The notes under the pieces were generated by a model, which was given only the letters and a program-made list of their open reading frames with translations, was not told the DNA's origin and made no database searches. A stretch of 64,000 bases of DNA, from the NCBI RefSeq assembly GCF_006475605.1, contig NZ_SSBC01000019.1, positions 248,001 to 312,000 on the forward strand, given 5' to 3'. Source of the DNA: Asticcacaulis tiandongensis (GTDB lineage Bacteria; Pseudomonadota; Alphaproteobacteria; Caulobacterales; Caulobacteraceae). The translations under genes and the position numbers were made by a program. Shown in pieces: positions 18,071-36,755 of this stretch; position 1 is the stretch's first letter; every line of letters begins with the position of its first letter.

Positions 18071-18477
18071 AGCCGGCGGCGCAAAGCGCGTCTCTATAGG
18101 TGGCTTCAAAAAAATCCAAAAATATGTGTCGGGAATGCGGCGGGTGAACGTCTGGATAATCAGAGTTCATAAGGCTGGAGGCGTATGCGTTTGCCAGCGA
18201 GCGTTGTTGCTTTTTAAGTAAATAATTACATATGTCTAAATTGTTCTCATGTATTATTGAGAATGATTTGGCATTTTCATGATTAATTGAATATTTTTCA
18301 AATCTAATAATGTTGTTTGCGGGCAACAAATAAGGTTAAAAACATTTAATAATTATCATTTTTTAAAAAGATACTTGATATGTGAAAAAGTTAGCGGTAA
18401 CAAATTTGCTTCTTGGGGGAAATTGTTGTTATCTGTAATGACACCGGTTTCCTCCGATGAGTGCACTATTAAAAAAG
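18071..18477. other. AT-rich intergenic region before the second receptor
   Basis: No gene is visible. The stretch 18205-18420 is markedly AT-rich compared with its surroundings and probably carries the promoter. The perfect palindrome ACATATGT is at 18228-18235. A small hairpin TTGTTTGC-GG-GCAACAA lies around 18311-18328. A FecI-dependent promoter is possible but no convincing match was found by eye. Confidence 0.45.
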
Positions 18478-18518: not shown

Positions 18519-21500
18519 ATGAGCAGTTTACGTGGGCGCGGGCGCACCATGCGTGGTGCATTGCTGGCCGGGATTTCTGTCACCGCCGCCATGGCAGCGT
18601 TTCCGCTGGCCGCTACGGCGCAGGAAGCGGCCGCAGACGGGGATGTCACTACGGTTGTGGTGACGGGCTATCGGGCATCGCTTCAGAGCGCCATTACCTT
18701 AAAGCGTAATGCCGATGTGATGATGGACGCCATCAACGCCGAAGATATTGCCGACATGCCGGATTCCAACCTTGCGGAATCCTTGCAGCGTATTCCGGGG
18801 ATTTCTATCGACCGTGACAATGGCGAAGGTCGCCAGATCAGTGTGCGCGGTCTGGGGGGTGATTTCACCCGCGTGCGTATCAACAATATGGAAGCCCTGT
18901 CGACCGGCGGTTCCAATGATGCGGGTTCAAGCCCTAACCGTTCGCGGGCCTTTGACTTTAACGCCTTTGCGTCGGAACTGTTTAATTCTATTCGCGTGCG
19001 CAAGACCGCTTCGGCGGAAACCGATGAAGGGTCGCTTGGGGCTACGGTTGACCTGATTGCCGGACGTCCGTTCGACTATAAGGAAGACGCCTTTGCCTTC
19101 TCGGTCGAGGACTCTTATTATGTCAACGGCAAGACGCATAATCCGCGTATGGCCGGTCTGTTCTCGAAGCGCTGGGCCGATGGTCGTCTTGGCTTTCTGA
19201 TGTCGGTCGCCTACGCCGAGCGTAACTCAGAGGATGACCAGTATCGTCGGGGTGTCGGAGCGTCTGACTATACCTATCGCGGTTCGACCTGGGCGGGAGA
19301 TGAGCTTCCCGGACGTGCGGGTTTTGCGGCACCCACGGGAACGGATTTCCGGGTTCGTGTTCCGGGGACGACCGATCAATATTATGATCCGTTCGAGTTT
19401 AACCCGACCGCATATGCGGCCATGACGGGTTCCAATCCCGAGGCCTATGCCAAGTTATATCCGAATTGTGCGGCTGCCGAGGCGGCAGATCCGGACACGC
19501 TTACGCCGACTTCACCGGGATGTAATGATTCACAGGTACGTTTTCCCGCCCTGCCATCCATTGAACAAAAGGATACGACCACCAAACGTTTGGGGGTGAC
19601 CTCGTCCTTCCAGATGCAGCTTTCGGCCAATACGCGCTTTACGATCGATGGCCTCTATTCGAAGTTTGAGAGTGAATCGACCAATTATCAGCTGTCGCCA
19701 GTGGGGCTGAACCGTAACAATACGAATGCGCTCTTTAACCACGGTATAAGCCTGCCAACCGCAGCCAATCCGAATCCTAACCCTATTGACAATGGTCTCT
19801 CCGAAGCCCAGCGTCGCGGCCTTTATCCGAACCTGTGTACGGCGCGAGCCGAGACGGCTCTCGTGGCCGCTATTGATTGTGGTCAGTCCTATTACGGCGG
19901 CGCATTGGCACCGGGTTTTGGTTACAGCTTTAATCCGAAAAACCTCGATACCTACGACTATTATACCAATGCGGCTTCGCCCTATTATACGAATCCGGCG
20001 TCAGTCGGGTATGGCACATATGCGGGAGCGGGTAATCTGGCATTCCGTGACTCGCTGATCGGGCGTCCAGCGACCAAGGTGCTGGCGGCTGAGGTTAATG
20101 GTGGCAATGCCGAATATCTGGAACTTCAGAATGTTGACTGGCGGTCCGGGGCTGACCGCGGGGCCTATACGACCGAATTCGCTCAGGCTTCGGTAGAGCT
20201 GACGCATCGTTTCAGCGACCGGTTCTCGGGGACCTTCTCGGCGGGGCTGTCGGAATCGACCAACTTCATGACGGGTCTGCTGGTTGAGTTCAATAATATG
20301 GACGAGCAGGGCGTTTTCGTATTTGACGAACGCGGCGGCGGTTCTATGCCTGTGATGAATGCCGGTTTCGATGCGGCTGATCCCACCAAGTGGGGTATCG
20401 TCAAGGGCTTCTCGGCCATGCGTAACTATACGCGTGAGACGATTAATGAATATAAGGGTGCCAAGGCTGATTTCAGCTATGATCTTACGGACAATCTGAC
20501 CTTCAAGTTCGGTGTGGTCGGGCGTCAGTTTGACTTCTCGACCAACCAGTTCGAACGTCAGAACGATGCCATCAATCCGACCGAGCTTGAGGCCGGTGTC
20601 ACAACCGCGTCACTGGGCCGCGTGATTAACTTCGGGGACGGTCTGGATGTGCCCGGTGGCACCACGACCTCGTTCTTTGCCCCAAGCATCGAAGCCTTTG
20701 ATGCGGTGTTTGGCTTTACCTGTAACTGCATCAACGAATACGGTGATTTCACTATCACCCGTAAACGGAACCGCACGACGACCTTTGGCGTGACGGAAAA
20801 GACGAACGGTGGCTATGGTCAGTTGAACTTCAACTATGACGTCATGGGCCGCAATATGTTCGGTAATATTGGGGTGCGTTACGTTAAGACCGATCTGAGT
20901 TCGGTGGGTGAAACCAATGACGGGCGGCCTATCTACGGCTCCAACAAGTATGACGACACACTGCCTTCATTCAACCTCGCGTGGGAAGTGATGGACGATG
21001 TCTATCTGCGCTTCGGTGCCTCAAAGGTTATGTCGCGTCCGATGCTCGGTAACCTGTCGCCAGCCATTACCGGTGTCAGCATTCCGTCAAACGGCAATAC
21101 GACGGGCGGGACGATCAATTTGGGTAACCCCAAGCTGTCGCCATTCCGTGGTACCGCCTATGATATGAGCGCCGAATGGTATTTCGCACCGGGTGCGCTG
21201 CTCAGCTTCGCTGTCTTCAAGAAGGACATCGAATCCTATCCGCAGACGGTTCTGTATGAAGCACCATTGTCTGAGTTCCTTGATGCGGAGTCCCGCGAAA
21301 CGCTCAAGGCGCAATTTGGCCTGAACGCCAGCGGTGATGCGCAGCGCGAATATGTCGACTCCGACTATCCGGTTCTGGCGCGTCAGTATCGTGATGCACC
21401 AGGCGGCACACTTGAAGGCTGGGAGTTCAGCTATCAGCAGGATCTGACGTTCCTGCCCTGGTATTTCAAGAATCTGGGGGTTCAGTTCAACGCCACGCAT

Positions 21501-21950
21501 ATTGAATCGAACCTGACCTATATTCTTGATCCGGGTACGGCAACCAAGCCTGCGGTCTATGGTGACGGGCCGTGGCTTGGGGCGTCGCCTAATGCGATTA
21601 ACTTCACGGTCTATTATGAAACCGAAAAGTTCAATGCCCGTATCTCGACGTCACAACGTGACGCCTATTTCACCACCTATCCTCTGACCTCCGGAAACTG
21701 TGATCCGGGGCTTCAGGCCAATGGCTCGCCCTGTGACGGACCTCTGATCAGGGAAATGGGCGGTTCCAAGGAAACGGTGAACGTCGATATGGCCATGCGC
21801 TATCAGCCAACCAAGCGCATCGCCATCACCTTTGAAGCCCAGAACCTTACCGATCAGGCCTCAGAGCGTTACGCCTATGATAATCCGGTGGTCAGCACCT
21901 ACAGCGCCGGTGGCCGGAACTTCAAGGTCGGCCTGCGCTATAAGTACTAA
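18519..21950 (+). CDS. TonB-dependent receptor (Caulobacter/Xanthomonas class)
   Basis: 1143 aa. Signal peptide with a basic start (RGRGRTMRGALLAGISVTAAM..) ends near ATAQE. TonB box TTVVVTGYRASLQ, plug with NAEDIADMPDSNLAESLQRIPGISIDRDNGEGRQISVRGLGG, and a long barrel ending NFKVGLRYKY. No STN domain. Long extracellular loops are rich in N, Y and T, as in carbohydrate-binding receptors. It lies directly upstream of the ten-gene pectin operon, separated by a structured leader and terminator, and is the most likely importer of the oligosaccharides those enzymes make. Confidence 0.93.
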   Translation: MSSLRGRGRTMRGALLAGISVTAAMAAFPLAATAQEAAADGDVTTVVVTGYRASLQSAITLKRNADVMMDAINAEDIADMPDSNLAESLQRIPGISIDRDNGEGRQISVRGLGGDFTRVRINNMEALSTGGSNDAGSSPNRSRAFDFNAFASELFNSIRVRKTASAETDEGSLGATVDLIAGRPFDYKEDAFAFSVEDSYYVNGKTHNPRMAGLFSKRWADGRLGFLMSVAYAERNSEDDQYRRGVGASDYTYRGSTWAGDELPGRAGFAAPTGTDFRVRVPGTTDQYYDPFEFNPTAYAAMTGSNPEAYAKLYPNCAAAEAADPDTLTPTSPGCNDSQVRFPALPSIEQKDTTTKRLGVTSSFQMQLSANTRFTIDGLYSKFESESTNYQLSPVGLNRNNTNALFNHGISLPTAANPNPNPIDNGLSEAQRRGLYPNLCTARAETALVAAIDCGQSYYGGALAPGFGYSFNPKNLDTYDYYTNAASPYYTNPASVGYGTYAGAGNLAFRDSLIGRPATKVLAAEVNGGNAEYLELQNVDWRSGADRGAYTTEFAQASVELTHRFSDRFSGTFSAGLSESTNFMTGLLVEFNNMDEQGVFVFDERGGGSMPVMNAGFDAADPTKWGIVKGFSAMRNYTRETINEYKGAKADFSYDLTDNLTFKFGVVGRQFDFSTNQFERQNDAINPTELEAGVTTASLGRVINFGDGLDVPGGTTTSFFAPSIEAFDAVFGFTCNCINEYGDFTITRKRNRTTTFGVTEKTNGGYGQLNFNYDVMGRNMFGNIGVRYVKTDLSSVGETNDGRPIYGSNKYDDTLPSFNLAWEVMDDVYLRFGASKVMSRPMLGNLSPAITGVSIPSNGNTTGGTINLGNPKLSPFRGTAYDMSAEWYFAPGALLSFAVFKKDIESYPQTVLYEAPLSEFLDAESRETLKAQFGLNASGDAQREYVDSDYPVLARQYRDAPGGTLEGWEFSYQQDLTFLPWYFKNLGVQFNATHIESNLTYILDPGTATKPAVYGDGPWLGASPNAINFTVYYETEKFNARISTSQRDAYFTTYPLTSGNCDPGLQANGSPCDGPLIREMGGSKETVNVDMAMRYQPTKRIAITFEAQNLTDQASERYAYDNPVVSTYSAGGRNFKVGLRYKY

Positions 21951-21960
21951 GGCGATCTGC

Positions 21961-22104
21961 AACCCTGTTGCTCACAATTGGGGGTGACAGGGTTCGCGAA
22001 ATATTTTCAATTCGGCTGACACGTACTTCCCTGTGTCAGCCGTCTCTCAGACCAGCTCCCCGTTGTTGTGATCCTATCTCATCACACAGTTGCTGGCACC
22101 TCAG
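21961..22104 (+). promoter_or_regulatory. structured leader with three stem-loops before the pectin operon
   Basis: Three stem-loops precede the terminator: AACCCTG/CAGGGTT plus TCAC/GTGA (21961-21994); GGCTGACAC/GTGTCAGCC (22014-22022 with 22033-22041); and TGTGAT/ATCACA (22067-22072 with 22081-22086). TGACAC (22017-22022) can alternatively pair with GTGTCA (22109-22114) in the 5' arm of the terminator, which would disrupt it. This is consistent with attenuation/antitermination, but that is inference only. Confidence 0.5.
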
Positions 22105-22142
22105 GCGGGTGTCATAGGGAACTATGACCCCGCTTTTTTTTT
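22105..22142 (+). terminator. strong intrinsic terminator immediately before the GH95 start
   Basis: GCGGG(T)GTCATAG-GGAA-CTATGACCCCGC, a 12-bp stem with one bulged T, followed by nine T. The T-tract ends 12 nt before ATG 22155 and abuts the GGAG ribosome-binding site (22145-22148). There is no room for a promoter after it, so transcription of the operon must read through. Confidence 0.9.
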
Positions 22143-22154
22143 GTGGAGTTATCT

Positions 22155-24533
22155 ATGCCTGATATTACACGCCGGACCGGTCTTGGGTTTATGGCCGCCC
22201 TGATGGGCGCCACCGCAATCCCTCCTCATGTACTGGCGCAAGCTCAGGCCGATGAAATTTTGCCGCGCACACAGGCTCAGGCCGGTGATCTGAGCCTGTG
22301 GTACAAGGCAGCGGCCAACGAATGGACCGAAGCCCTGCCGCTGGGCAACGGGCGTCTGGGGGTCATGGTGTATGGCGGCGTGGCGCGGGAGCGGTTGCAG
22401 ATCAGCGAAGACACACTCTATGCCGGTGCGCCCTATCAGCCGGCTAATCCCGATGCGCGGGCGGCCTTACCCGAAGTGCGTAAGCTGATTTTTGACGGAA
22501 AATATCTTGAGGCGCAGGAGCTGGTGCAGGCGAAGATGATGGGTACGCCCATCCGTCAGGTCTCCTATCAGACCGTGGGCGAAATCAGCCTGATTTTTTC
22601 GGCTTCCTCCAATGCCAGCGACTATCGGCGTGAGCTTGATCTGACGCGGGCGGTGTCGACGGTGACCTATCGCCGCGACGGTGTGAATTATAAACGTGAG
22701 ACCTTTGTGTCGCCGATTGATCAGGTGATGGTGACGCGTCTGACGGCGGATAAGCCGGGTCGCATCAGCTTTCAGCTAGGGTTTGAAACCCCGATGAATG
22801 CTACGGTTTCGGTCGAAGGGCCGCAGGACATCGTCCTGTCCGGTCGTAACAGCCCCCATGCCGGTCAGGAAGGCGCGCTGCGTTATGAAAACCGTGTGCG
22901 CGTGGTGGCCAGAGGTGGTCAGCAAAGTACGGGCACGGATGAGATTGTGGTGAGCGCGGCCGATGAGGTGCTTATCTACGCGGCGGCGGCAACCAACTAT
23001 GTCAATTTCAGAGATGTCAGCGGTGATCCGACGGCCATTACAAAGGCGCAGATCGCGGCGGCGGTGACACGCCCTTATGGGCAGATGCTGACAGATCATA
23101 TCGCGGCGCATCAGGTGCTGTTCAATCGTGTCAGTGTCGATTTTGGTCGCACGAAATTTGCCGATCTGCCGACCAATGAGCGGATCGCCAAATCCCAGAC
23201 GCAGGATGATCCGGCGCTGGCCATGCTTTATTTTCAGTTCGGGCGGTATCTGCTGATCTGCTGTTCAAGGCCCGGCACGCAACCGGCCAATCTTCAGGGG
23301 ATATGGAACGACCGGCCAAGTGCGCCTTGGGGTGGCAAATATACGATCAATATCAATACCGAGATGAATTACTGGCCCGCCGAGCCAACCAATCTGCCGG
23401 AAATGGTGGAGCCTCTGATTGAAATGGTCAGGGATATATCGGTGACCGGCGCGGAAACGGCTAAAACCATGTATGGCGCGCGCGGCTGGGTGACGCACCA
23501 CAACACCGACCTGTGGCGGGCGACGGCCCCTATCGATTCCGCCTTCTATGGCACATGGCCAACGGGGGGCGCATGGCTGTGTCTGCATCTGTGGGATCGC
23601 TATGATTACGGGCGTGACAAGGCCTATCTGAAGAACATCTATCCGATCCTTAAGGGTGCGTCGCTGTTCTTTGTCGATACACTGGTGAAGGACCCCAACA
23701 GCGGCTACATGGTCACGGCACCGTCGATCTCACCGGAAAACCGTCACCAGTTCGGCACCTCAATCTGTGCGGGGCCGACCATGGATATGCAGATCATCCG
23801 TGACCTGTTTGATAACACTATCAGGGCTGCGGAAATTCTTAAGCTTGATGCGCCGCTGCGCAAGGAAATGGCCGCTTTGCGGGCGCAGCTTGTGCCGAAT
23901 AAAATCGGTAAGGCCGGTCAGCTTCAGGAGTGGCAGGACGACTGGGACCTGACGGCGGTGGATATGCACCATCGTCACGTCTCGCATCTCTATGGGCTTT
24001 ATCCGTCAAGCCAGATCAATGTGCGTGATACGCCTGATCTGGCGGCAGCGGCGCGCAAATCGCTTGAGATGCGCGGTGACCACTCGACCGGCTGGGCGAT
24101 TGCCTGGCGGATCAATCTGTGGGCGCGGCTGGGCGAAGGGGATCGTACCCATTCGATCCTCAGGCTGCTTCTGGGGCCGGATCGCACCTATCCAAACATG
24201 TTTGACGCCCATCCGCCGTTCCAGATCGATGGCAATTTCGGCGGTACGTCCGGTATGGTCGAGATGCTGATGCAGTCCTATAATAACCAGATCATCATCC
24301 TGCCCGCCCTGCCGTCGGCATGGCCGTCAGGCGAGATCAGGGGGTTACAGGCCCGTGGCGGTTTCGCCGTTGACCTGAAATGGCAGGAGGGCAAGCCGAA
24401 ACAGGTTGTGCTGACCAGCCGCTTGGGCGAACCTGTGCGTCTGGTGTTTGGTCAGCAGGTGCTTGAGGTCAAACTCAAGGCCGGGCAGACGGCGACCTAT
24501 GATTTTGACGGATATGGACTGGTGAGGGCGTAA
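22155..24533 (+). CDS. GH95 alpha-L-fucosidase / alpha-L-galactosidase-family hydrolase
   Basis: 792 aa, inverting GH95 enzyme removing terminal L-fucose or L-galactose from side chains (xyloglucan, RG-I, RG-II) outside the cytoplasm. The N-terminus DITRRTGLGFMAALMG is a twin-arginine signal. The N-terminal beta domain has the family motif EALPLGNGRLGVMVYGG. The (alpha/alpha)6 barrel has NINTEMNYWPAEPTNL (catalytic Asn pair), DMHHRHVSHLYGLYP and QIDGNFGG (Asp of the active site). GGAG is 6 nt before ATG 22155; a GTG at 22143 is less likely. The gene ends TAATG, overlapping the PL1 start by one base, and heads the ten-gene operon. Confidence 0.9.
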   Translation: MPDITRRTGLGFMAALMGATAIPPHVLAQAQADEILPRTQAQAGDLSLWYKAAANEWTEALPLGNGRLGVMVYGGVARERLQISEDTLYAGAPYQPANPDARAALPEVRKLIFDGKYLEAQELVQAKMMGTPIRQVSYQTVGEISLIFSASSNASDYRRELDLTRAVSTVTYRRDGVNYKRETFVSPIDQVMVTRLTADKPGRISFQLGFETPMNATVSVEGPQDIVLSGRNSPHAGQEGALRYENRVRVVARGGQQSTGTDEIVVSAADEVLIYAAAATNYVNFRDVSGDPTAITKAQIAAAVTRPYGQMLTDHIAAHQVLFNRVSVDFGRTKFADLPTNERIAKSQTQDDPALAMLYFQFGRYLLICCSRPGTQPANLQGIWNDRPSAPWGGKYTININTEMNYWPAEPTNLPEMVEPLIEMVRDISVTGAETAKTMYGARGWVTHHNTDLWRATAPIDSAFYGTWPTGGAWLCLHLWDRYDYGRDKAYLKNIYPILKGASLFFVDTLVKDPNSGYMVTAPSISPENRHQFGTSICAGPTMDMQIIRDLFDNTIRAAEILKLDAPLRKEMAALRAQLVPNKIGKAGQLQEWQDDWDLTAVDMHHRHVSHLYGLYPSSQINVRDTPDLAAAARKSLEMRGDHSTGWAIAWRINLWARLGEGDRTHSILRLLLGPDRTYPNMFDAHPPFQIDGNFGGTSGMVEMLMQSYNNQIIILPALPSAWPSGEIRGLQARGGFAVDLKWQEGKPKQVVLTSRLGEPVRLVFGQQVLEVKLKAGQTATYDFDGYGLVRA

Positions 24534-25816
24534 TGGGTGTGTACCGGCGTGGCGTACTGGCCGGTTTAGCGGGACTGGGTCTGATGCCTGCGCAGTTATC
24601 GGCTGCGGGGCAGGCGGGCTATACCGCTACGCGGGGCGGGGCGGGTGGTCGCATCCTGCGCGTGACGACGCTTGCGCCGGACGGTGAAGGGTCGCTGAAA
24701 AACGCACTTGAGGCCAAAGGGCCGCGCATTGTGGTTTTTGAGGTTGGCGGCGTTATCGACCTTGGGAAGCAGACCCTGAAAGTCACCGAGCCTTATCTGA
24801 CAGTGGCCGGTGAGACGGCACCCGATCCGGGTATCACGCTGATAAAAGGCGGGGTCCAGATATCGACCCATGACGTCATTGTACGGCATCTGGCCATTCG
24901 GCCGGGGACAGCAGGCATGGCGAAGGGCAGCGGCTTTGAACCGGATGGCCTGTCTATTACGGCGGGACGGGATATTATTGTCGATCATTGCAGCCTGACC
25001 TGGGCTATTGATGAAGCGCTTTCGGCGTCGGGGCCGCGCTTTAACGGTGACGGGCCTGACGACTGGCGGCGGAACACCTCACACCGGATCACATTTTCAC
25101 ATAATCTGATTGCACAGTCGCTGCACGATGCCAGCCACGCCAAGGGGCCGCATTCGATGGGGTCGCTGGTGCACGACAATGTGACCGGCGTGCTGATCTA
25201 CGGCAATCTCTATGCGCACAACAACGAACGTCATCCGCTTGTGAAGGGCGGCGGGCATTGCGCGGTGATCAACAATGTCTTCGTCAATCCGGGCACGGCC
25301 TGTGCGCAATATACGCTGGTCGAGGATCAGTGGGCGGGGCGTGACCGGCTGGAAGGCCGGATGATCCTGCGCGGCAATGTGATGCGTTGCGGGCCGGATA
25401 CAAAGGCCGGTTTGCCGATGCTGTTGTTTGGCGGGGCGGGTGATCTGAGGCTGCATGCGCACGACAATATTGCGACCTATCAGGACGGACGTGACGCGCC
25501 GGTGATCGGCTATTATCAGGCGCGGCCTGATGGGCATCCGGCGGCGGTGCCATATGTGCCTAAGGGGTTCATTAAGGCGATGCCGCGCGAACAGATGTGG
25601 CCGCAGGAGATCGGTCTGCGGTCGGGCGCGAACACCGAAGCCTTTGTGTATCGGGATTGCGGGGCGCGGCCATGGGCGCGTGATCCGATTGATGCCCGCA
25701 TTGTTGCGCAGGCCAAAACCGGTGCGGGCCGCATCATTCACAATGAATCCGAGGCCGGAGGTTATCCGGCCTATGCCCCAAGGCGACGAAAATTTGCGCC
25801 GTCGTCCCTGCTATAA
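24533..25816 (+). CDS. pectate lyase-like protein, PL1 family
   Basis: 427 aa right-handed beta-helix lyase cutting de-esterified homogalacturonan by beta-elimination with Ca2+. The signal YRRGVLAGLAGLGLMP is of the twin-arginine type. Helix motifs are GRILRVTTL..GEGSLKNAL, VVFEVGGVIDL, VDHCSLTWAIDEAL (Ca-binding strand) and NNERHPLVKGGG (catalytic Arg region). The TAATG overlap with GH95 indicates coupled translation. The length is normal. Polygalacturonate is the likely substrate; methylated pectin cannot be excluded. Confidence 0.85.
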   Translation: MGVYRRGVLAGLAGLGLMPAQLSAAGQAGYTATRGGAGGRILRVTTLAPDGEGSLKNALEAKGPRIVVFEVGGVIDLGKQTLKVTEPYLTVAGETAPDPGITLIKGGVQISTHDVIVRHLAIRPGTAGMAKGSGFEPDGLSITAGRDIIVDHCSLTWAIDEALSASGPRFNGDGPDDWRRNTSHRITFSHNLIAQSLHDASHAKGPHSMGSLVHDNVTGVLIYGNLYAHNNERHPLVKGGGHCAVINNVFVNPGTACAQYTLVEDQWAGRDRLEGRMILRGNVMRCGPDTKAGLPMLLFGGAGDLRLHAHDNIATYQDGRDAPVIGYYQARPDGHPAAVPYVPKGFIKAMPREQMWPQEIGLRSGANTEAFVYRDCGARPWARDPIDARIVAQAKTGAGRIIHNESEAGGYPAYAPRRRKFAPSSLL

Positions 25817-25840
25817 AAAATTAAAATAAGAGGAAATGCC

Positions 25841-27493
25841 ATGTCAGAGAGACCCCCCCGTAATAAACCGGCTGCTAACCGGCGTGATGCCCTGAAATCC
25901 TTAAGTCTTGGGGCCTTGATGTTCGGCGGTGCCAGCACCGCACAGGCCGCACAGAATGATTGTAAAGCCGTGGTAGCTCCGGAGTGGGCGAAAGGCGTGG
26001 AAGGGCAGCGCAAGCCTGATCTGGGGAACGGCTATTTCCTCAATCCGCTGGTGGCGGGGGATCATCCTGATCCGACCATCCTTAAGGATGGCGAAGACTA
26101 TTACATGACCTTTTCGACCTTTGAGGCCTATCCGGGGCTGGTCATCTGGCACTCAAGGGATCTGGTCAACTGGCGGCCGCTGACGGCCAGTCTGACGAAA
26201 AATATCGGTGCCGTCTGGGCACCGGAACTGACCAAACACAAGGGGCGGTTCTATCTCTATATTCCGACCAAGAAGACAGACGCACCGGACAGCAAGACGA
26301 CCTCATGGGTGATCTGGGCAGACAACATCATGGGGCCGTGGTCGGAGCCGATTGATCTCAATCTGACGCGCCATATCGATCCGGGCCATGCGGTCGGCGA
26401 GGATGGGTCACGCTGGCTGTTCCTGTCGGGCGGAGATCGTATCCGCTTGTCGGATGACGGCCTGAGCACCGTAGGTGCGGTTGAGCATGTCTATGATCCG
26501 TGGCGATATCCTGATGACTGGGACGTTGAAGGTTTCTCACCGGAGGGGCCGAAGATTACCCGTCATGGCGACTATTATTATCTGATCACCGCCGTGGGGG
26601 GGACGGCGGGGCCGCCGACCGGACATATGGTCATTGCGGCGCGGTCGAAATCGATCAACGGGCCGTGGGAACATCACCCGAAAAACCCGCTGGTGCGCAC
26701 GGAATCTTTAAGTGAAAAGTGGTGGTCGCGCGGTCATGCGACGCTGGTTGAGGGGCCAGCCGGTGATTGGTGGAGCGTGTATCATGGCTATGAAAATGGC
26801 TTCTGGACGCTGGGGCGGCAGACGCTTCTGGCACCGGTGACCTGGACGAATGATGGCTGGTTTGAATTTGGCGGCGGCGACCTGTCGCAACCGATCAAAA
26901 AGCCTGCGGGCGGTAAGGCGCATGGTCATGAACCGGCGCATGGCTATGCCTTGTCGGATGATTTCCGTGAAGACCGTTATGGTGTCCAGTGGAACTTCTT
27001 TGCACCGAAACCGGATGAGGCGTCGCGCATTCGCCGCGAGAACGGCGTGCTGCACCTTAAGGCCACGGGTGAGGCGCCAAGTTCCTCGTCGCCGCTGGTC
27101 TGTGTGACCGGTGATCAGGCCTATGAATTCGAGTGCGAAATCGAGATTGATGATGGCGCATGGGCCGGGCTTTTGCTGTGGTACGACCGGCAGCTTTACT
27201 GCGGTCTGGGCTTTAACGCGAAAAACTTTATTACGCATCAGTATGGCATTGAGCGCGGCCGTCCGGCCAATCCGCACGGCAAACGCCTGCACATGCGTGT
27301 GCGCAATGACCGGCACATTGTCAGTTATTTCACCTCAAATGACGGGGTGAACTGGAAGCGCTTTGATCGCGGCATGGAGGTGTCAGGTTATCACCACAAT
27401 GTGCGTGGCGGCTTCCATATGCTCAAGCCCGGCTTCTATGCGGCGGGTAAGGGCGAGGTGCGCTTTAAAAACTTCAAGTACAAGGCATTGTGA
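25841..27493 (+). CDS. GH43 glycosidase with C-terminal beta-sandwich
   Basis: 550 aa exported enzyme, probably an exo-acting alpha-L-arabinofuranosidase or beta-xylosidase on pectin side chains. Signal has twin arginine (NRRDALKSLSLGALMFGG). The five-bladed propeller shows the GH43 triad: general base D77 (DHPDPT), pKa modulator Asp (RHIDPGHA) and general acid Glu (FSPEGP). From about 370 a C-terminal beta-sandwich domain follows (YALSDDFRED..WNFFAPKP..VLHLKATGE). AGAGGA 7 nt before the ATG supports this start. Only 24 nt separate it from PL1, and its stop overlaps the CE8 start (TGATG). Confidence 0.88.
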   Translation: MSERPPRNKPAANRRDALKSLSLGALMFGGASTAQAAQNDCKAVVAPEWAKGVEGQRKPDLGNGYFLNPLVAGDHPDPTILKDGEDYYMTFSTFEAYPGLVIWHSRDLVNWRPLTASLTKNIGAVWAPELTKHKGRFYLYIPTKKTDAPDSKTTSWVIWADNIMGPWSEPIDLNLTRHIDPGHAVGEDGSRWLFLSGGDRIRLSDDGLSTVGAVEHVYDPWRYPDDWDVEGFSPEGPKITRHGDYYYLITAVGGTAGPPTGHMVIAARSKSINGPWEHHPKNPLVRTESLSEKWWSRGHATLVEGPAGDWWSVYHGYENGFWTLGRQTLLAPVTWTNDGWFEFGGGDLSQPIKKPAGGKAHGHEPAHGYALSDDFREDRYGVQWNFFAPKPDEASRIRRENGVLHLKATGEAPSSSSPLVCVTGDQAYEFECEIEIDDGAWAGLLLWYDRQLYCGLGFNAKNFITHQYGIERGRPANPHGKRLHMRVRNDRHIVSYFTSNDGVNWKRFDRGMEVSGYHHNVRGGFHMLKPGFYAAGKGEVRFKNFKYKAL

Positions 27494-28491
27494 TGGACAC
27501 TATATCACGCAGACTGATTTTGGGTGGTCTGGCAGGCATGGGCCTGTCGGCGCTTAGTCCATCCCTTTGGGCACAGAACTTGTCCGGCAACCGTCCGGTG
27601 GTGCGTGTGCCGCAGGATCACAAGACTCTGGAGGCGGCTTTTGCGGCCCTTCCTGACACCGGTGGCACAGTTGAAATTGCCGCAGGCACCTATCGCGAGA
27701 AGCTGCAACTCGCCAAGCGCGATGTGCATCTGGTGGGCAAGGGCGAGTGTCCCGGGGATGTAATCATTGTCTGGGGTGACAGCGCCAAAATGGCCGGTGG
27801 CACAGGCAAGTCTTCGTCATTCACGGTCACGGGTGATGGGTTTCGGGCGGAGAATCTGACGATTTCCAATGACTATGATTACCATGCTGATCCGTCTCAG
27901 GCGGTCGCCTTGTATCTGACGGCAGATCGGGCAGTGTTGCGTAACGTCAGTCTTCTGGGGGGGCAGGATACGCTCTATGCGGCGTCGAAAGACCGCAATA
28001 ATCCGAGCCGCCAGTATTATGATCACTGCTATATCGAAGGCCATGTCGATTACATTTTCGGCAATGCGCTGGCTTTGTTCGACCGCTGTCATCTGCATGT
28101 TCTGAAACGTGGGACGGCGTTCATTACGGCCCATAGTCGCACGGCAGACACCGAGACCTCGGCCTATGTGTTTGACCATTGCCGCATCACCATTGAGGCC
28201 GGTTCGGGCAATGTCTATTTCGGGCGCGCTTGGCGGCCCTATGCGCAGGTTATTTTCCTTAATACCGAGATTGGCGAAGGGCTGCATCCCGAAGGCTGGC
28301 GCGAATGGACGCCGGGCAAGACCGAGACCTATGCCACGGCGCATTTTGCCGAATATGGCTCAACGGGGGCTGGCGGCAATATGGATATGCGGGTGTTCTG
28401 GGCCAAAGCCCTGACGGATGCGCAAGCCGCGCAGTGGCGGCGCGAGGTTATTTTCAAAGACAATAGCTGGATCGGAGCCGCCAATGGTTAA
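27493..28491 (+). CDS. pectin methylesterase, CE8
   Basis: 332 aa beta-helix enzyme removing methyl groups from homogalacturonan so that lyases can act. Twin-arginine signal SRRLILGGLAGMGLSA, cleavage near LWAQ. Catalytic motifs: GGQDTLYA (Q158, D159), VDYIFGNALALFD (D186) and GRAWRPY (R246). ATG 27493 overlaps the GH43 stop by one base; a GTG just before is in frame. The 3' end overlaps the next gene by 8 nt. The length and motif order are typical of bacterial CE8. Confidence 0.92.
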   Translation: MDTISRRLILGGLAGMGLSALSPSLWAQNLSGNRPVVRVPQDHKTLEAAFAALPDTGGTVEIAAGTYREKLQLAKRDVHLVGKGECPGDVIIVWGDSAKMAGGTGKSSSFTVTGDGFRAENLTISNDYDYHADPSQAVALYLTADRAVLRNVSLLGGQDTLYAASKDRNNPSRQYYDHCYIEGHVDYIFGNALALFDRCHLHVLKRGTAFITAHSRTADTETSAYVFDHCRITIEAGSGNVYFGRAWRPYAQVIFLNTEIGEGLHPEGWREWTPGKTETYATAHFAEYGSTGAGGNMDMRVFWAKALTDAQAAQWRREVIFKDNSWIGAANG

Positions 28492-31400
28492 TCTCAATCG
28501 CCGTGGCTTTTTGGGCGTGGCCGGTGCGGGCGTGGCTTTGTCGGCGGGCGCACAGGCGCAGTCAAAAACCGCAACACTTGATATTCCCGATGAGGGGTGG
28601 AATCTGTGGATTGATGAACAGGCAGCCTTCAAGGATGACGTGATCTATCTGCCGTCGCAGGTGGATCTGAAATCGTTGCCCATTAATCCGCCGACCGGTG
28701 GCTGGGGCGCTTTGCGGCCCGAAGTGACGGTGACGCTGCCTGCCACGGTTGAGCAATATTTCTGGGGCCGGTTCGGTCTGAGGCCCTATGGGGCGGATGA
28801 ATATCGCTATGCCGAAGATGATGATGTGCCGCAAAACGGGGCCTATCGCGGGGTGTCCTGGTGGTATCGCACTATCGATATTCCGGCCTCGGCCAAGGGT
28901 AAGCGCGTATTCTTGCACATTCGCGGCGCACGGCTGCGGGCCGAAGTGTTTCTGAATGAGAAGCTGGTCGGCTATTCGATCATGTCGGAACTGCCGATTG
29001 ATTGCGACCTGACGGCAGCGATGAATGCAGGCGGGCCAAACCGTCTGGCGATCCGCATTACCAATCCGGGCGGGCGCTATGACTGGCGCGATTCCACGAC
29101 CATGATGTGGGGCAAGCTGAAGCTGTTTGCCTCGCACGGGTTTGGTGGGCTTGATCGCGGTATGTCGCTGAGCGTGCATCCGCTGGCGGCGCACATCGAA
29201 GACGCGTGGGTGCTCAACACGCCTGATCCGCGAAAAGTCACCGCCCATATGCAGGTGCGTCTGGCTAAGCCCGCGACAGCGGCGGCGCTTAAGGCTGCGG
29301 CCAGCGTCAGCTTAACGGATGATCATGGCAAACCGCTTGCCGCGCAGATTAGTCTTAAGGACAGCAAGGTCGAAGGAACTCTGGCGACGCTGGTGTTTGA
29401 TCTGCATGCGCCGGAAGCAAAGCTGTGGGATCTGGAAAACCGTCACCTCTATCGCATCGATTTTGCCTATAAGGCGGGTAAGGAAGCGTCACAAAGCAAT
29501 GTGCGGTTCGGCTTCCGCTGGTTTGTGGTTGATGGGGTCGGCACGGACGCCATGCTCAGGCTCAATGGTAAGCGTATCAAGCTCTATTCGGCGATTTCCT
29601 GGGGCTATTGGGCCTATAATGGCATGTGGCCGACGCCCGCTCTGGCGCGGCGCGAGGTTGAGGCGGCGCAAGCCTTGGGGCTCAATGCGCTGCATGCCCA
29701 CCGTAATATCGGTAAACACGATGTCTTTACGGCGCAGGACGAGATGGGCCTGATGCGGGTGATGGAGCCCGGTGGCGGACGTCATGCCATTGGCCGTGAT
29801 CTGAAAGAGGGTGAGTCCTTAAATGAGGCCGACCGTTTCAGCCGCGACTTCATGTTTGAGAAATGCGTGGCCATGGCCCGAACCTTCCGCTCGCATCCAT
29901 CACTGGCGCACTATACGCTGCAAAACGAGATCGGGGCCAATCTGCAAAATCCCGATGTGCAGCGCGTGCTGAAGGCCATCCACGACACTGATCCGTCACG
30001 CACGGTCATCCTCAATGATGGCTTTGTGAAGCGCGGCGCAGCGCAGGCCATGTATCTGGCCTATAATGACCATTACTTCCGTTCGGATGTCGAGGAATGG
30101 GGCGGCTGGTGGGTTGAGCATCAGGCGGCGGGTGATCAGTGGTATGACCGTTTTTACGTCAACCGCGATGACTATGTGCACCGTCAGACCGGCAAGCCCT
30201 ATATTGTCGAGTTCGGCGAGATGCAGGGCTGTGCGGTCGCCGACAACCACGTGAAAATGGTGGCCGATATTCTGGCCAACGGCGGAAAGTCCTATGACCT
30301 TGAGGATCACAAGATCATCATCGAAAACACCTCGGCTTATCTGGATAAGTGGGGGTTCCGCAAGGCGTTCCCGACGACCGAAAGTCTGTTTCTGTCGGTG
30401 GGTCGTAAGGTCTATGACGGCTGGCAGAACTATATGGAAAATATCCGCATCGGTAATGAGGTGGATATTGCGGCAATCTCCGGCTGGGAAACGACGGCTA
30501 TCGAAAACCATTCTGGGATTGTCGATAACCTGCGCTATTTCAAGGCCAATCCTGACCTGATCCGCGTCAGTCTTCAGCCCGTGCGTCCGGTCGCCAAGCA
30601 GCGGCGTCTGGTCTATGCGGCGGGTGAGGTGGCGGAACTGGATATCTATCTGCTCAATGACACCAATGCGGCGGTTCCGGGTGAACTGAAGCTCAGTCTG
30701 GTGACACCGGATGGGAAGGTCACGGACATCGCCACCTATCCGGCACCGGCCTTTAAGGACGATGTGTTCAGCTATCTGCTGGCGGAAAATGTAAAAACGC
30801 CGGTGCTGACGCAGGGGGGCATCAACAAGGTGCGCCTTGAGCTTAAGGGGCATCCGGTCTTTGAACGTGAACTGTGGGTGGTGGATGTGAAACCGTACTT
30901 CCCGCGTCGCCTCAAGGTCGGGTTGTCGGGCGTTTCGAAATCCTTCCGCGCCCAGCTTACGGGGATCAGTGGTGTGGCGTTTGAAGACTTCAGAGCCGGT
31001 GTCAAATATGATGCTGTGATCGCGTCAGGTCTTAAGGCCGATGAGATCGAACGCCGTGACATTGCTGAAAAAACCGGTCACGAAGCTCAGCCGAAAAAGG
31101 ATGAAAAACCGGTTCTGGTGCTTGGGGAACTGCCTGCCGATGTGCTTAAGGCCGTGCAGGGCGGGACGCCGCTTCTGGCCTATGTGCCCGAAGACGGTCT
31201 GGCTGAGGGTGTGGCCAAGCAACTCGAAGGTCTCGGCCTGTTCAGCTATCAGGGGCGTGTCGGTAATCTGCGGGCACCGTGGATGGGCAACTGGAACTAT
31301 CTCAGGGCCCATGCCCTGTTTGACGGTATCCCTGCCGATCAGGCGACCTCGGTCTGGCATCAGGTTGAAGGTGAGCCGTCGAACGGGCTGATCATTGACG

Positions 31401-31579
31401 GTTCAGGTCTTGAGGTGGTGGCGGCCTATAGTCGTGACCATGACCGGCATAATGGTGCGGCGACCTTTACGGCGCAAAAGAACGGGATGAAGGTGGTGTT
31501 TCAACGTCTGCCGGACATGGTGGCGCCGTTGCAAACCCGTTTCCTGATCAATGCAATCAACTGGATGGTGCAGGCATGA
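28484..31579 (+). CDS. GH2-family glycosidase, beta-galactosidase-like
   Basis: 1031 aa. Classic twin-arginine signal NRRGFLGVAGAGVALSAG. Modules: sugar-binding jelly roll (about 80-230, with YRGVSWWYRT and VFLHIRGAR..AEVFLN), immunoglobulin-like domain, TIM barrel (about 350-620) and a long C-terminal beta region. The acid/base is in LQNEIG (E482) and the nucleophile candidate is E576 (YIVEFGEMQG). GH2 members act on beta-galactosides, mannosides or glucuronides; in this RG-I operon, galactan side chains are the obvious target (inference). ATG 28484 is inside the CE8 gene end; a longer frame to 28418 would overlap CE8 by 74 nt and lack the signal at its N-terminus. Confidence 0.85.
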   Translation: MVNLNRRGFLGVAGAGVALSAGAQAQSKTATLDIPDEGWNLWIDEQAAFKDDVIYLPSQVDLKSLPINPPTGGWGALRPEVTVTLPATVEQYFWGRFGLRPYGADEYRYAEDDDVPQNGAYRGVSWWYRTIDIPASAKGKRVFLHIRGARLRAEVFLNEKLVGYSIMSELPIDCDLTAAMNAGGPNRLAIRITNPGGRYDWRDSTTMMWGKLKLFASHGFGGLDRGMSLSVHPLAAHIEDAWVLNTPDPRKVTAHMQVRLAKPATAAALKAAASVSLTDDHGKPLAAQISLKDSKVEGTLATLVFDLHAPEAKLWDLENRHLYRIDFAYKAGKEASQSNVRFGFRWFVVDGVGTDAMLRLNGKRIKLYSAISWGYWAYNGMWPTPALARREVEAAQALGLNALHAHRNIGKHDVFTAQDEMGLMRVMEPGGGRHAIGRDLKEGESLNEADRFSRDFMFEKCVAMARTFRSHPSLAHYTLQNEIGANLQNPDVQRVLKAIHDTDPSRTVILNDGFVKRGAAQAMYLAYNDHYFRSDVEEWGGWWVEHQAAGDQWYDRFYVNRDDYVHRQTGKPYIVEFGEMQGCAVADNHVKMVADILANGGKSYDLEDHKIIIENTSAYLDKWGFRKAFPTTESLFLSVGRKVYDGWQNYMENIRIGNEVDIAAISGWETTAIENHSGIVDNLRYFKANPDLIRVSLQPVRPVAKQRRLVYAAGEVAELDIYLLNDTNAAVPGELKLSLVTPDGKVTDIATYPAPAFKDDVFSYLLAENVKTPVLTQGGINKVRLELKGHPVFERELWVVDVKPYFPRRLKVGLSGVSKSFRAQLTGISGVAFEDFRAGVKYDAVIASGLKADEIERRDIAEKTGHEAQPKKDEKPVLVLGELPADVLKAVQGGTPLLAYVPEDGLAEGVAKQLEGLGLFSYQGRVGNLRAPWMGNWNYLRAHALFDGIPADQATSVWHQVEGEPSNGLIIDGSGLEVVAAYSRDHDRHNGAATFTAQKNGMKVVFQRLPDMVAPLQTRFLINAINWMVQA

Positions 31580-32472
31580 GGGTATTCATTTTAGCATCGC
31601 TTATGTTGTTGGCGGCGACGCCGGTTTTTGCGCAAACTCCGGCCACTACTCTGACCGCCGAAGACTATGCGGCGCGGGCAGAGGTAAAGAAGATCACGGC
31701 GAAGAAAATCGTTCTGGTAGGCGATTCGACCACGGCGGTTATTGGTGGCTGGGGGCCGAGTTTTTGTGCGCAGCATTTAACCTCGTTTGTGGCGTGCGTG
31801 AATCTGGCGCGCGGGGGGCGTTCGACCTTTAATTATCGCGCCGAAGGGTCATGGGATATTGCTCTGGCCGAGATGAAATCGGGCGGGTTTAGTGAAACCT
31901 ATGTGCTGATTCAGTTTGGCCATAATGATCAGCCGGGCAAGCCCGGCCGGTCAACCGATCTGGAAACCGAATTTCCGCAAAATCTGAGGCGTTATGTTGA
32001 AGAGGTACGCGCCGCCGGTGCGGTGCCGGTTCTGGTGACACCGCTGACGCGGCGGGGTTTCAAAAACGGTGTGGTGGAAAACGATCTGGGTCTGTGGGCC
32101 GAAGCCACGCGCAAGGTTGCGGCGGAAATGGATGTGCCGCTGGTTGATCTCTATGCGCGTTCGCAGGAGGCCGTGCAGGACATGGGGGCGGTCGCGGCCA
32201 TGCGGTTTGCGCAAAAACCGCCGTCAGATCAGGTGCGTGAAGCAGGCAAAACCGGCAATACTATTCCAGGCTCGACCGGTGTGGTACCTGTGCCAGCTAT
32301 GACACCGGTGACAGAGGCGCAAATCCGCGCTACGACGGAGCCTATGGGTCAGGCAAGACTCAGTTTTGACTATACCCATCTTGGTCGTGAAGGTGCGGAT
32401 TTCTTTGCCGCAATTGTGACACGCGAACTGGCGAAGGTTGTGCCCGAACTGCGAAAAGACCTTATACCTTAA
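31576..32472 (+). CDS. rhamnogalacturonan acetylesterase, CE12 (SGNH hydrolase)
   Basis: 298 aa secreted esterase removing acetyl groups from GalA in RG-I. Sec signal MRVFILASLMLLAATPVFAQ. SGNH blocks: GDSTT with nucleophile S51, LARGGRST (Gly block), FGHND (N117) and DYTHLG (D265, H268). An insertion at about 215-255 with Pro/Thr-rich sequence separates the last block from the core. The start overlaps the GH2 stop (ATGA). It works together with PL26 and GH105, which need deacetylated backbone. Confidence 0.92.
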   Translation: MRVFILASLMLLAATPVFAQTPATTLTAEDYAARAEVKKITAKKIVLVGDSTTAVIGGWGPSFCAQHLTSFVACVNLARGGRSTFNYRAEGSWDIALAEMKSGGFSETYVLIQFGHNDQPGKPGRSTDLETEFPQNLRRYVEEVRAAGAVPVLVTPLTRRGFKNGVVENDLGLWAEATRKVAAEMDVPLVDLYARSQEAVQDMGAVAAMRFAQKPPSDQVREAGKTGNTIPGSTGVVPVPAMTPVTEAQIRATTEPMGQARLSFDYTHLGREGADFFAAIVTRELAKVVPELRKDLIP

Positions 32473-32499
32473 GAAAACCAATAAACAGGAACAGAAACA

Positions 32500-33804
32500 A
32501 TGCCCGGACATACTCTCAAGCGTCATCTGTGTTTAACGGCGGCCATCGGTCTTATGTGGTTGCCGGTAAGCGGACAAGGGGCGGTGATCGGGCAGAATGT
32601 GCCGTTTCCACCGCTGACGGCGGAGCGCCTGACGCCGGATCAGCAGGACTGGCGGGATTATCTGGCACGTTCCGAAGCCCAGAAACAGGCCGACCGCGCG
32701 GTTCTGGCGGCAGAGCGCAAGGGACTGACCGAGATTCCGGCGTCGGCTCAGGCCGGAAATGGCGAAAAAACCATGCCGTTGAACAGGCCAGCGGACTGGT
32801 ACGCGTCTTCTGAGGCCCGTCAGGTTGCCGATCATATCGTCAGCTACCAGACACCGGCGGGCGGCTGGACGAAGAACCATCCGCGCGACGCCGCCCCCCG
32901 TCAGAAAGGACAGGCCTTTACGGCGCGCGGGTCTGTGCGGGTGCCGACAGCGGGTGATTTCGACACCGGCAGCGATGCGGAATGGAGCTATGCCGGTACG
33001 ATTGATAATGAGGCAACGACGCTTGAAATCCGCTTTCTGATGAAGGTGGCGGCGCAGTTACCGGCCGCTGAGGCGAAGCCCTATATTGCGGCTGCCGAAA
33101 AGGGATTGACCTATCTGTTTGCCGCACAATTTCCCAATGGCGGCTGGCCTCAGGTCTGGCCGCTTCAGGGCGGTTATCATGACGGTGTGACGCTGAATGA
33201 CAATGCCATGATCGAGGTGATCTCGCTGATGGATGAGGTGTCGCGCAGTGTCGGGGAATTCAGCCTCCTTAGTGAAGCCACGCGTCAGAAGGCGGCGGAC
33301 TCTGAGACGAAAGGGGTGAATAACCTTCTGGTGTCTCAGGTACGGGTGGGTGATAAGGGGGGGCTGTGGGCGCAGCAATATGACGCCCTGACCCTGACAC
33401 CGGCTTCGGCGCGTAACTATGAGCCACCGGCCATAAGTTCGTCGGAAAGTGCTGCTGTTTTAGGCTATCTGATGAGCCTGCCTGATCCGTCGCCGGAAAT
33501 AGTTAAGGCGGTCGATGATGGGGTGAAGATGTTGCACCATCTGAAGATTCACGACAAGGTTTTCAGACGGGTCAGCGAAACCGAGGGGCGTCGACTGGTG
33601 ACCGAAGACGGTGCGGTGATCTGGGCGCGTTACTATGATCCGAAGACCCTGAAGCCGATCTTTGGCGAGCGCGACAAATCCGTTTTTGACAGCGTAGATG
33701 ATGTCGGCCTTGAGCGGCGTAACGGTTATGCCTGGTTCTCGACCAGCCCGCAGAAAATAATTGATGCCTATGACGCGTGGAAAAAAACGCACGGTGACCA
33801 CTAA
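32500..33804 (+). CDS. pectate lyase, PL10 (operon copy)
   Basis: 434 aa (alpha/alpha)3-type lyase for homogalacturonan. Sec signal ends near SGQGA. A helical N-terminal part (about 35-95) precedes the catalytic domain (WYASSEARQVADHIVSYQTP.GGWTKN, TIDNEATT, FPNGGWPQVWP, VTLNDNAMIEV), which carries the PL10 aromatic/Asp motifs. AGGA lies 9 nt before ATG. It is 27 nt after CE12 and overlaps the next gene by one base (TAATG). A paralogue lies at 51720-53033 on the other strand, with different linker sequence. Confidence 0.9.
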   Translation: MPGHTLKRHLCLTAAIGLMWLPVSGQGAVIGQNVPFPPLTAERLTPDQQDWRDYLARSEAQKQADRAVLAAERKGLTEIPASAQAGNGEKTMPLNRPADWYASSEARQVADHIVSYQTPAGGWTKNHPRDAAPRQKGQAFTARGSVRVPTAGDFDTGSDAEWSYAGTIDNEATTLEIRFLMKVAAQLPAAEAKPYIAAAEKGLTYLFAAQFPNGGWPQVWPLQGGYHDGVTLNDNAMIEVISLMDEVSRSVGEFSLLSEATRQKAADSETKGVNNLLVSQVRVGDKGGLWAQQYDALTLTPASARNYEPPAISSSESAAVLGYLMSLPDPSPEIVKAVDDGVKMLHHLKIHDKVFRRVSETEGRRLVTEDGAVIWARYYDPKTLKPIFGERDKSVFDSVDDVGLERRNGYAWFSTSPQKIIDAYDAWKKTHGDH

Positions 33805-35540: not shown

Positions 35541-36739
35541 TGCGCTGGCGTGGGGTGGCAGGGATTATCGGTGTTTTGAGCCTGTTGAGCGCCGCCGTAA
35601 GTCATGCCGCACCCTATCGGGTGGCGGAGGGGGTGTTTGCCCCGTCGCAGCCCGATCTGGGGCTGAAGACCGACGAGGGTACGCAGACCTTCACGGTGTT
35701 TGCGCCAAAAGCCGCGGAAGACCGGTTCAACAACGGTGTGGTTCTGATCCCGTTTAAGGGGCGGCTCTATGCCCAGTGGCAAAGCTCTTACCGGGATGAG
35801 GATTCCTCCGACACATGGGTGGCCTTCAGCCAGAGTGAGGATGGTGAAAACTGGCGCGCGCCGGTTATGCTGGCCGAACGCGGGCGCAACGGGGCCATGC
35901 ACACCAGCGGTGGCTGGTGGACGGATGGGGACACATTGGTGGCCTTTATCAATGTCTGGCCCACAGGGTTTCAGTCCGGCGACGGCGGCTATACCGATTA
36001 TCGTCTGTCAACGGACGGGGTGAACTGGAGTGCCCCGCAACGGGTAACGGATCATACGGGTGCGCCGGTGGCCGGTATCATAGAACAGGACCCGCACCGG
36101 CTTAAGCGCGGGCGCATTGTCACGGCCTTTCATCAGCGTCCGGGGCTGGTGGTTAGTCCTTTTTATACGGATGACCCTTTGGGGGTGAGCGGCTGGGTCA
36201 AGGGTTCGTTGCCGCTTTTGCCGCATGATGCCAGGGCCCCGCATGGCCAGCCGGTAAGCCGTGAACTGGAGCCGAGTCTGTTTGAAGTCGGTGACTGTAT
36301 GGTGATGGTCTTCCGCGATCAGGCCTCAAGCTATCGGCAACTGGCATCCGAAAGCTGTGACGGCGGAGAAAATTGGACGCAGGCGGTTATGACAAACATG
36401 CCGGATTCGCGCTCCAAACAAAGTGCGGGCAATCTGCCGGACGGGCGGGCTTATCTGGTGAATGCGCCCAATGCCGATCGGGTGCGTAGGCCTCTGGCCA
36501 TCACGGTGGGCGACGGGCGGTGCTTTACTGACAGCTATCTGCTGCGCGGAGCGGCTGACCTTCAGCCGTTACGTACTGAGGGCAAGTATAAGCGCCCCGG
36601 ATATCATTACCCCAAGTCGGTGATCTGGGGCGATTATCTCTATGTCGGCTATGCCACCAACAAGGAAGATGTGCAGGTCACGCGCGTGCCTTTGAGCGCC
36701 TTAAAAACCAAACCGGAGCGCGGCTGCGACTCCGAATAA
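35540..36739 (+). CDS. sialidase-like beta-propeller protein (BNR/Asp-box repeats)
   Basis: 399 aa exported protein, Sec signal ending near SHAAP. Asp-box type repeats are visible: SEDGENWRAP, STDGVNWSAP and SCDGGENWTQ, spaced as blades of a six-bladed propeller. A conserved-looking R/E set (FRDQASSYRQLASE, KYKRPGYHYPKS) could form an active site. The sialidase fold also houses rhamnosidases and other glycosidases, and sialic acid is not expected in pectin, so the likely role is hydrolysis of a pectin side-chain residue. The family was not identified. Overlaps GH43 by one base; 16 nt to GH3. Confidence 0.65.
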   Translation: MRWRGVAGIIGVLSLLSAAVSHAAPYRVAEGVFAPSQPDLGLKTDEGTQTFTVFAPKAAEDRFNNGVVLIPFKGRLYAQWQSSYRDEDSSDTWVAFSQSEDGENWRAPVMLAERGRNGAMHTSGGWWTDGDTLVAFINVWPTGFQSGDGGYTDYRLSTDGVNWSAPQRVTDHTGAPVAGIIEQDPHRLKRGRIVTAFHQRPGLVVSPFYTDDPLGVSGWVKGSLPLLPHDARAPHGQPVSRELEPSLFEVGDCMVMVFRDQASSYRQLASESCDGGENWTQAVMTNMPDSRSKQSAGNLPDGRAYLVNAPNADRVRRPLAITVGDGRCFTDSYLLRGAADLQPLRTEGKYKRPGYHYPKSVIWGDYLYVGYATNKEDVQVTRVPLSALKTKPERGCDSE

Positions 36740-36755
36740 CAGGACAGGAAACGAG

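Follow-up and report, generated by a model that had tools for sequence, protein, structure and literature searches.

An RNA element followed by an intrinsic terminator is conserved at the 3' end of genes encoding one clade of TonB-dependent receptors in Asticcacaulis. The window, which is the whole stretch of 64,000 nucleotides that was analyzed, contains one copy of this element at the junction between a receptor gene and ten genes of the pectin type. The conservation of the element, the presence of the terminator, the tie to a single receptor clade, and the retention of the element in the absence of a pectin operon were established by computation, and the C-rich core of the element is open in the predicted folds. 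We propose, with a probability of about 40%, that the mRNA of the receptor gives rise at its 3' end to a terminator-ended regulatory RNA of the anti-Shine-Dalgarno type. The formation of a stable RNA, its pairing in trans, and its targets are the components of this proposal that we infer.

Organization of the receptor/GH95 junction

The leader located between the receptor and GH95 genes folds with a predicted energy of −86 kcal/mol, versus −59.4 ± 4.2 kcal/mol for shuffled sequences (z = −6.35; 0 of 200 shuffles were as low). The preliminary description of this region reported a structured leader containing four hairpins, and the arms of hairpins 1 and 2 were confirmed (Table 1). A third hairpin does exist at 22067-22086, as reported, but this interval is only the inner part of a larger structure closed by stem P1 (CCAGC/GCUGG, 22052-22056/22092-22096). 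Within P1, the element comprises an exposed UCCCCG (22057-22062), stem P2 (UUGU/ACAG), and a variable hairpin, P3. The last hairpin, GCGGG(U)GUCAUAG/CUAUGACCCCGC with a GGAA loop, is GC-rich and directly abuts the run of T residues, which defines an intrinsic (Rho-independent) terminator; its tail ends 12 nt ahead of the GH95 ATG codon, as had been described. The ten co-directional genes announced downstream were identified as GH95, pectate lyase, GH43, pectinesterase, GH2-like, GDSL, Pec_lyase, GH43, BNR_2, and GH3. A crude scan restricted to sites of the sigma-70 type detected no promoter-like sequence on the plus strand between 20297 and 25078, in agreement with the reported lack of a promoter in the leader. 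The combination of structured RNA and a strong terminator at the receptor/enzyme junction also proved to be conserved in related bacteria.

Table 1. Features of the window in the vicinity of the receptor/GH95 junction.
Feature	Position	Strand	Comment
Operator-like motif TGACACCGGTTTC	18439-18451	+	Precedes the receptor gene; shares its motif with the TGACACCGGTRTCA sites ahead of related receptor genes
TonB-dependent receptor gene	18519-21950	+	TIGR01782 family; 1143 aa; element at its 3' end
Hairpin 1	21961-21994	+	Inverted repeat; arms 21961-21977/21978-21994, 76% complementary
Hairpin 2	22013-22042	+	Perfect 10-bp arms 22013-22022/22033-22042; C-rich loop GUACUUCCCU
Conserved element (hairpin 3, enlarged)	22052-22096	+	Sequence comparison, covariance models, folds
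Intrinsic terminator	22105-22142	+	Stem 22105-22133; nine T 22134-22142
GH95 gene	22155-24533	+	First gene past the terminator; ATG at 22155
Nine more pectin-type genes	24533-39410	+	Co-directional, downstream of GH95

Identification of the element in related genomes

A search for GH95 gave matches in 29 of 119 related genomes, and 30 GH95 loci were fetched, one of which was that of the window. At six other loci (L003-L006, L009, and L010), GH95 adjoined a gene for a receptor closely homologous to that of the window. The alignment of these seven junctions, made before the choice of any motif, revealed 14 consecutive invariant columns (CCAGCTCCCCGTTG), followed by a variable stretch, GCTGG, and the terminator. 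The sequences of hairpins 1 and 2 were not conserved in the six orthologous junctions; by eye, the loop of hairpin 2 resembles the ACUCCCUGU loops present after some related receptors.

A covariance model, R1, built without the window copy, recovered the window element (21.6 bits; E of 2e-4 in the window and 0.012 in the whole genome) and detected new copies behind other receptors in four genomes (G017, G011, G003, and G020). R1 was run over 299 genomes of the family, generating matches with E ≤ 1 in 64 genomes. The contexts inspected were those of the seven known copies and 23 more (L050-L072), weaker matches being left out with the exception of G017:C10, which was rejected as antisense to a coding sequence. 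Among the 23 contexts, the four new copies and the window were kept, 17 were rejected by eye as coding or due to chance, and one, L069, was doubtful. The latter locus (G019:C12, near 96320; 18.4 bits) lies behind a gene that does not encode a receptor; it displays a possible element-like hairpin (CCAGCUCCCCGU...GCUGG) together with a stem resembling a terminator, and may be a chance match.

The receptor clade was then defined by protein homology alone, which gave 26 loci distributed over 17 of the 25 genomes; for 24 of these loci, identity to the window receptor was 56% or more. The 3' ends of these genes supplied two variants of the element (CCGGC-UCCCUG-UU...GCUGG, in L132 and L133). A second covariance model, R2, built from 12 distinct copies, led to 14 accepted elements in 12 of the 25 Asticcacaulis genomes; three further matches in the genus (18-23 bits) were not accepted, one of which (L275) was inspected. 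A pattern search in 61 genomes pointed to 11 places in 10 genomes, including three (L032, L033, and L041) judged by eye to be coding. Extending the pattern scan to 84,980 species returned 27 stretches: the eight from Asticcacaulis corresponded to loci already counted, and the remaining 19 were judged by eye to be coding-like chance matches.

No match to Rfam was obtained in the window at the gathering score, and a further search gave two sub-threshold matches (E of 0.94 and 2). No such element was found, judging by titles and the opening of abstracts, among the articles of the searched library naming Asticcacaulis together with TonB-dependent receptors, small RNAs, or riboswitches, and a search joining 3' UTR-derived small RNA and TonB-dependent returned no match. 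The available part of a review on 3'-end small RNAs (PMC9438474) mentions neither TonB nor Caulobacter.

Conservation and predicted structure of the element

The general plan of the element is CCAGC-[UCCCCG]-UU-variable hairpin-GCUGG, with a strong terminator hairpin located 5-8 nt further on. The core was present at 14 of the 24 clade loci fetched by receptor homology. For eight representatives of the clade (28 pairs), the 60-nt upstream flanks were 47.1% identical, versus 47.3% for shuffled sequences; the 97% identity of the core among the same representatives follows in large part from the pattern used in the search and was not counted as evidence, in contrast to the flank control.

The nucleotides CCC were predicted to be unpaired with a probability of at least 0.71, and P1 to be paired with a probability of at least 0.90, in all 14 elements. 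The element therefore displays, in predicted folds, the conserved and accessible seed that is expected of a small RNA derived from an mRNA 3' end. The sequence of P3 varied with conservation of pairing, negative z values being obtained for all 12 distinct inner segments (Stouffer −6.5, for rows that are not independent). P1 was nearly invariant, with a single change from A-U to G-U, and showed no double-sided covariation. A terminator hairpin was found behind each of the 14 elements at a distance of 5-8 nt, with energies ranging from −17.9 to −26.9 kcal/mol. At least four consecutive T residues followed this hairpin in 13 of the 14 copies, the sequence being TTTCTT in L133.

In seven further members of the clade, a C-rich or related motif was detected by eye in hairpins with quite different stems. 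Five relatives with a wholly changed P1 keep a loop of the ACUCCCYGU type, again by eye, with the motif ACUCCCCGUU in L116 and ACUCCCUGU in L114 and L124-L126. The loop motifs of L129 (CUUCCCGUU) and L131 (ACUCGGGCGUU) are weak, by eye. No C-rich or related motif was found in three of the 24 members (L122, L134, and L135).

Association of the element with a receptor clade

All 14 elements follow receptor genes belonging to the same clade, 4-206 nt past the stop codon. Each copy thus combines a position at an mRNA 3' end with an intrinsic terminator, yet 12 copies precede another gene. In the receptor tree, strict elements were found on either side of the deepest drawn split, the deepest two (L127 and L128) being long branches, and members with loop-type motifs or devoid of the element were scattered.

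The gene located behind the 12 strict copies encoded GH95 (seven copies), pectate lyase (two), GH43, Pec_lyase, or pectinesterase (one each). No recognizable pectin gene was found behind the two variant copies, L132 and L133, which are close orthologues and were considered as a single event. L132 is followed by a convergent LRR/kinase gene; in the next 9.6 kb, none of the eight ORFs tested, out of 13 listed, matched a pectin family in Pfam, and five matched nothing. Behind L133 lie a DUF2322 gene and then a receptor gene in convergent orientation, and the contig stops 4 kb further on. The diversity of the next gene and the two copies devoid of a pectin gene indicate that the element is linked to the receptor rather than to the downstream genes.

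At two loci, L113 and L115, an extra full terminator was seen by eye between the receptor stop codon and the element, indicating that the element is not a simple 3' UTR there. By eye also, the usual last codons of the receptor gene seem to be displaced by a short insertion at these loci. Palindromic repeats resembling MITEs (AGAG...CTCT-like, then GCGATAT...ATATCGC-like) were seen by eye between the terminator and the next gene in L118, L120, L124, and L126.

In the genome of the window (G000), a strict intrinsic terminator follows 19 of the 45 receptor genes, which are L195-L238 plus the copy in the window, versus 20 of 352 sampled genes; the window terminator, which has a bulge, is outside the 19. 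Hairpins with a C-rich loop preceded the terminator in six of these 19 receptor genes versus none of the 20 background genes (Fisher 0.008, or 0.05-0.09 if short UTRs were omitted), a count of little weight since the motif was picked post hoc and the counted hairpins differ from L211 and L237, which had been picked by eye. Hairpins with C-rich loops were noted by eye ahead of the terminator at other receptor 3' ends of this genome, in L211 (G000:C16, near 228059), L230, and L237, for example GGGAUUG[UAACUCCCCG]CAGUCCC.

Alternative pairing of the terminator arm

It had been suggested that TGACAC and GTGTCA motifs of the leader form mutually exclusive structures acting as a switch. In the window, such a pairing is possible, between 22024-22045 and 22103-22124 (19 of 22 pairs), and the energy of pairing of the upstream region with the terminator arm (−17.8 kcal/mol) was slightly more favorable than that of shuffled sequences (p = 0.037). 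For a transcript extending to 22124, ahead of the 3' arm of the terminator, the antiterminator fold was the minimum (−65.0); over 200 nt of the leader, the terminator fold reached −80.0, versus −73.1 if the antiterminator was forced. In the 12 other leaders, pairing between the upstream region and the terminator arm did not exceed that of shuffles (p of 0.11-0.92; L133 has no upstream region). The alternative structures are thus feasible in the window and are not conserved: hairpin 2 varies between orthologous junctions, the paired bases are not kept in relatives, and the switch was rejected. The attenuation that it was thought to mediate is weakened by L132 and L133, in which the element and the terminator occur without a recognizable pectin gene, and a terminator regulated by other means could still operate. 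Two additional pairings were examined by eye and rejected: a pseudoknot between CCCCG and GCGG of the terminator fits several copies but neither L127 nor L128, and pairing of the bulge with the Shine-Dalgarno sequence of the downstream gene was inconsistent.

Candidate target sites

The sequence AACGGGGAG is the exact complement of CUCCCCGUU, the exposed core of the element. It precedes an ATG codon, at about 40-120 nt from the operator-like motif TGACACCGGTRTCA, in 23 of the 25 genomes of the genus, the latter motif being found in all 25. In eight translated cases, AACGGGGAG was judged by eye to open one kind of receptor, distinct from the window clade. The homologue of this receptor in the genome of the window, G000:C15, is 58% identical to that of G002 over 485 aa. 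Its start site, ACGGGGAG, gave the strongest predicted pairing among those of the 45 receptor genes (−15.5 kcal/mol). An operator is located upstream of this gene, whose neighbors encode GH28, GH88, a PfkB kinase, and an ABC transporter.

These observations make G000:C15 a weak candidate target, a lead rather than a result, since the site is equally common in genomes devoid of the element and since shuffled and other anti-Shine-Dalgarno seeds perform well. Among the genomes carrying the element, 11 of 12 had an operator-near AACGGGGAG site, against 12 of 13 among those lacking it, which slightly lowers our confidence both in a 3'-end RNA and in a ranking of receptors, as discussed below. Pairing with the seed was mildly stronger for receptor start sites than for 345 other sites (p = 0.008), a result equaled by 21 of 200 shuffled seeds and exceeded by the anti-Shine-Dalgarno seeds CUCCCUGUU (p = 6e-6) and the alphaR8 core (p = 0.002). 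The start sites of the clade itself contain AACAGGGA in 12 of 24 members, with one C.A mismatch to CUCCCCGUU.

The operator-like motif is palindromic and was seen before many receptor genes of the clade and before another pectin receptor. Its distribution may perhaps correspond to a single pectin regulon.

Interpretation

Since the element is conserved with the receptor, including at loci without pectin genes, a receptor-linked 3'-end RNA fits the data better than an operon attenuator. In the mechanism that we propose, the hairpin would hold CUCCCCGUU open and the adjoining intrinsic terminator would end most transcripts of the receptor gene. The resulting 3' end of about 90 nt (about 22049-22142) would act as, or be processed to, a base-pairing regulatory RNA aimed at receptor mRNAs with ribosome sites resembling AACRGGGAG, the best receptor match in the genome of the window being another putative pectin-regulon receptor, G000:C15. 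Expression of the enzyme operon would then depend on leakage of the terminator or on a promoter that escaped detection.

A wider role, possible but doubtful, is an RNA-based ranking of receptors, in which the mRNAs of one pectin-receptor clade would release anti-Shine-Dalgarno RNAs silencing competing receptors of the same regulon. If so, making one receptor would turn down another and the ranking would be written into the 3' ends of receptor genes in Asticcacaulis. Caulobacterales produce dozens of TonB-dependent receptors, over 60 in Caulobacter (PMC11005374), and must choose which to make; the genome of the window encodes 44 in addition to that of the window. Through a conserved 3'-end RNA module, the expression of one receptor would be directly connected with the control of other receptors, and pectin operons would gain a layer of regulation by RNA.

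The element could instead belong to a plain partial terminator accompanied by stabilizing hairpins, which would keep enzyme levels below receptor levels and protect the 3' end of the receptor mRNA. This explanation, which we consider rather unlikely, agrees with the abundance of strict terminators after receptor genes and with the free variation of hairpins 1 and 2, but accounts neither for a motif shared by 14 of 24 clade members amid random-looking flanks nor for the recurrence of an open C-rich loop. Regulated attenuation, in which a protein, an RNA, or a sugar would bind the UCCCCG bulge or loop and alter readthrough of the terminator, thereby setting enzyme levels relative to the receptor, is unlikely. 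The tight spacing between the element and the terminator in all 14 copies, the location of 12 copies ahead of co-directional pectin genes, and the feasibility of an antiterminator fold in the window speak for it. Against it speak the lack of a conserved alternative pairing and of an Rfam match at the gathering score, the C-rich loop carried by unrelated stems in some relatives, unlike a structured aptamer, and L132 and L133, which retain the element with no recognizable pectin gene behind it, an attenuator being expected always to precede the genes that it controls.

The open CUCCCCGUU might also capture a G-rich RNA acting in trans, as a docking site or a sponge, and thereby couple the receptor operon to carbon starvation. 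Such a role has a precedent in Caulobacter, in which CrfA binds the UUUCCUCCCU core of alphaR8 RNAs by a G/A-rich loop (PMC12559287). We regard it as improbable, the element being devoid of this core by eye.

Comparison with known regulatory RNAs

The element is a conserved RNA without an Rfam match and of a known kind. Small RNAs derived from the 3' ends of uptake operons have already been described, as illustrated by OppZ (PMC7398697) and MalH (PMC8081044). The RusT RNA of Caulobacter reduces the mRNAs of several TonB-dependent receptors (PMC11005374). Unlike the element, it is an iron-starvation RNA under NtrYX control, and the available part of this article does not tie it to a receptor 3' end. 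SisA-D (alphaR8) are anti-Shine-Dalgarno small RNAs of Caulobacter that are countered by the sponge CrfA and whose repressed targets include a receptor mRNA (PMC12559287). They resemble the element in having an exposed C-rich anti-Shine-Dalgarno core downstream of a weak hairpin and a terminator. They differ from it by the sequence of this core (UUUCCUCCCU versus CUCCCCGUU), the former being absent from the element by eye, and by being described in that source as separate genes with their own promoters rather than receptor 3' ends.

OppZ and CarZ are 3' UTR small RNAs of Vibrio cholerae, the former originating from an oligopeptide transporter operon (PMC7398697). They pair with their own transcripts, whereas the start site of the receptor carrying the element is mismatched and the element is usually intergenic. 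They have in common with the element a short conserved unit located just past the stop codon and ended by a Rho-independent terminator (PMC7398697). MalH is an Escherichia coli small RNA produced from the 3' end of malG in the malEFG mRNA (PMC8081044). It differs from the element in sequence and organism, and by the fact that its expression and targets have been tested, the element being known from sequence alone. MalH and the element both lie at the end of a sugar-uptake transcript, and MalH affects outer membrane channels (PMC8081044).
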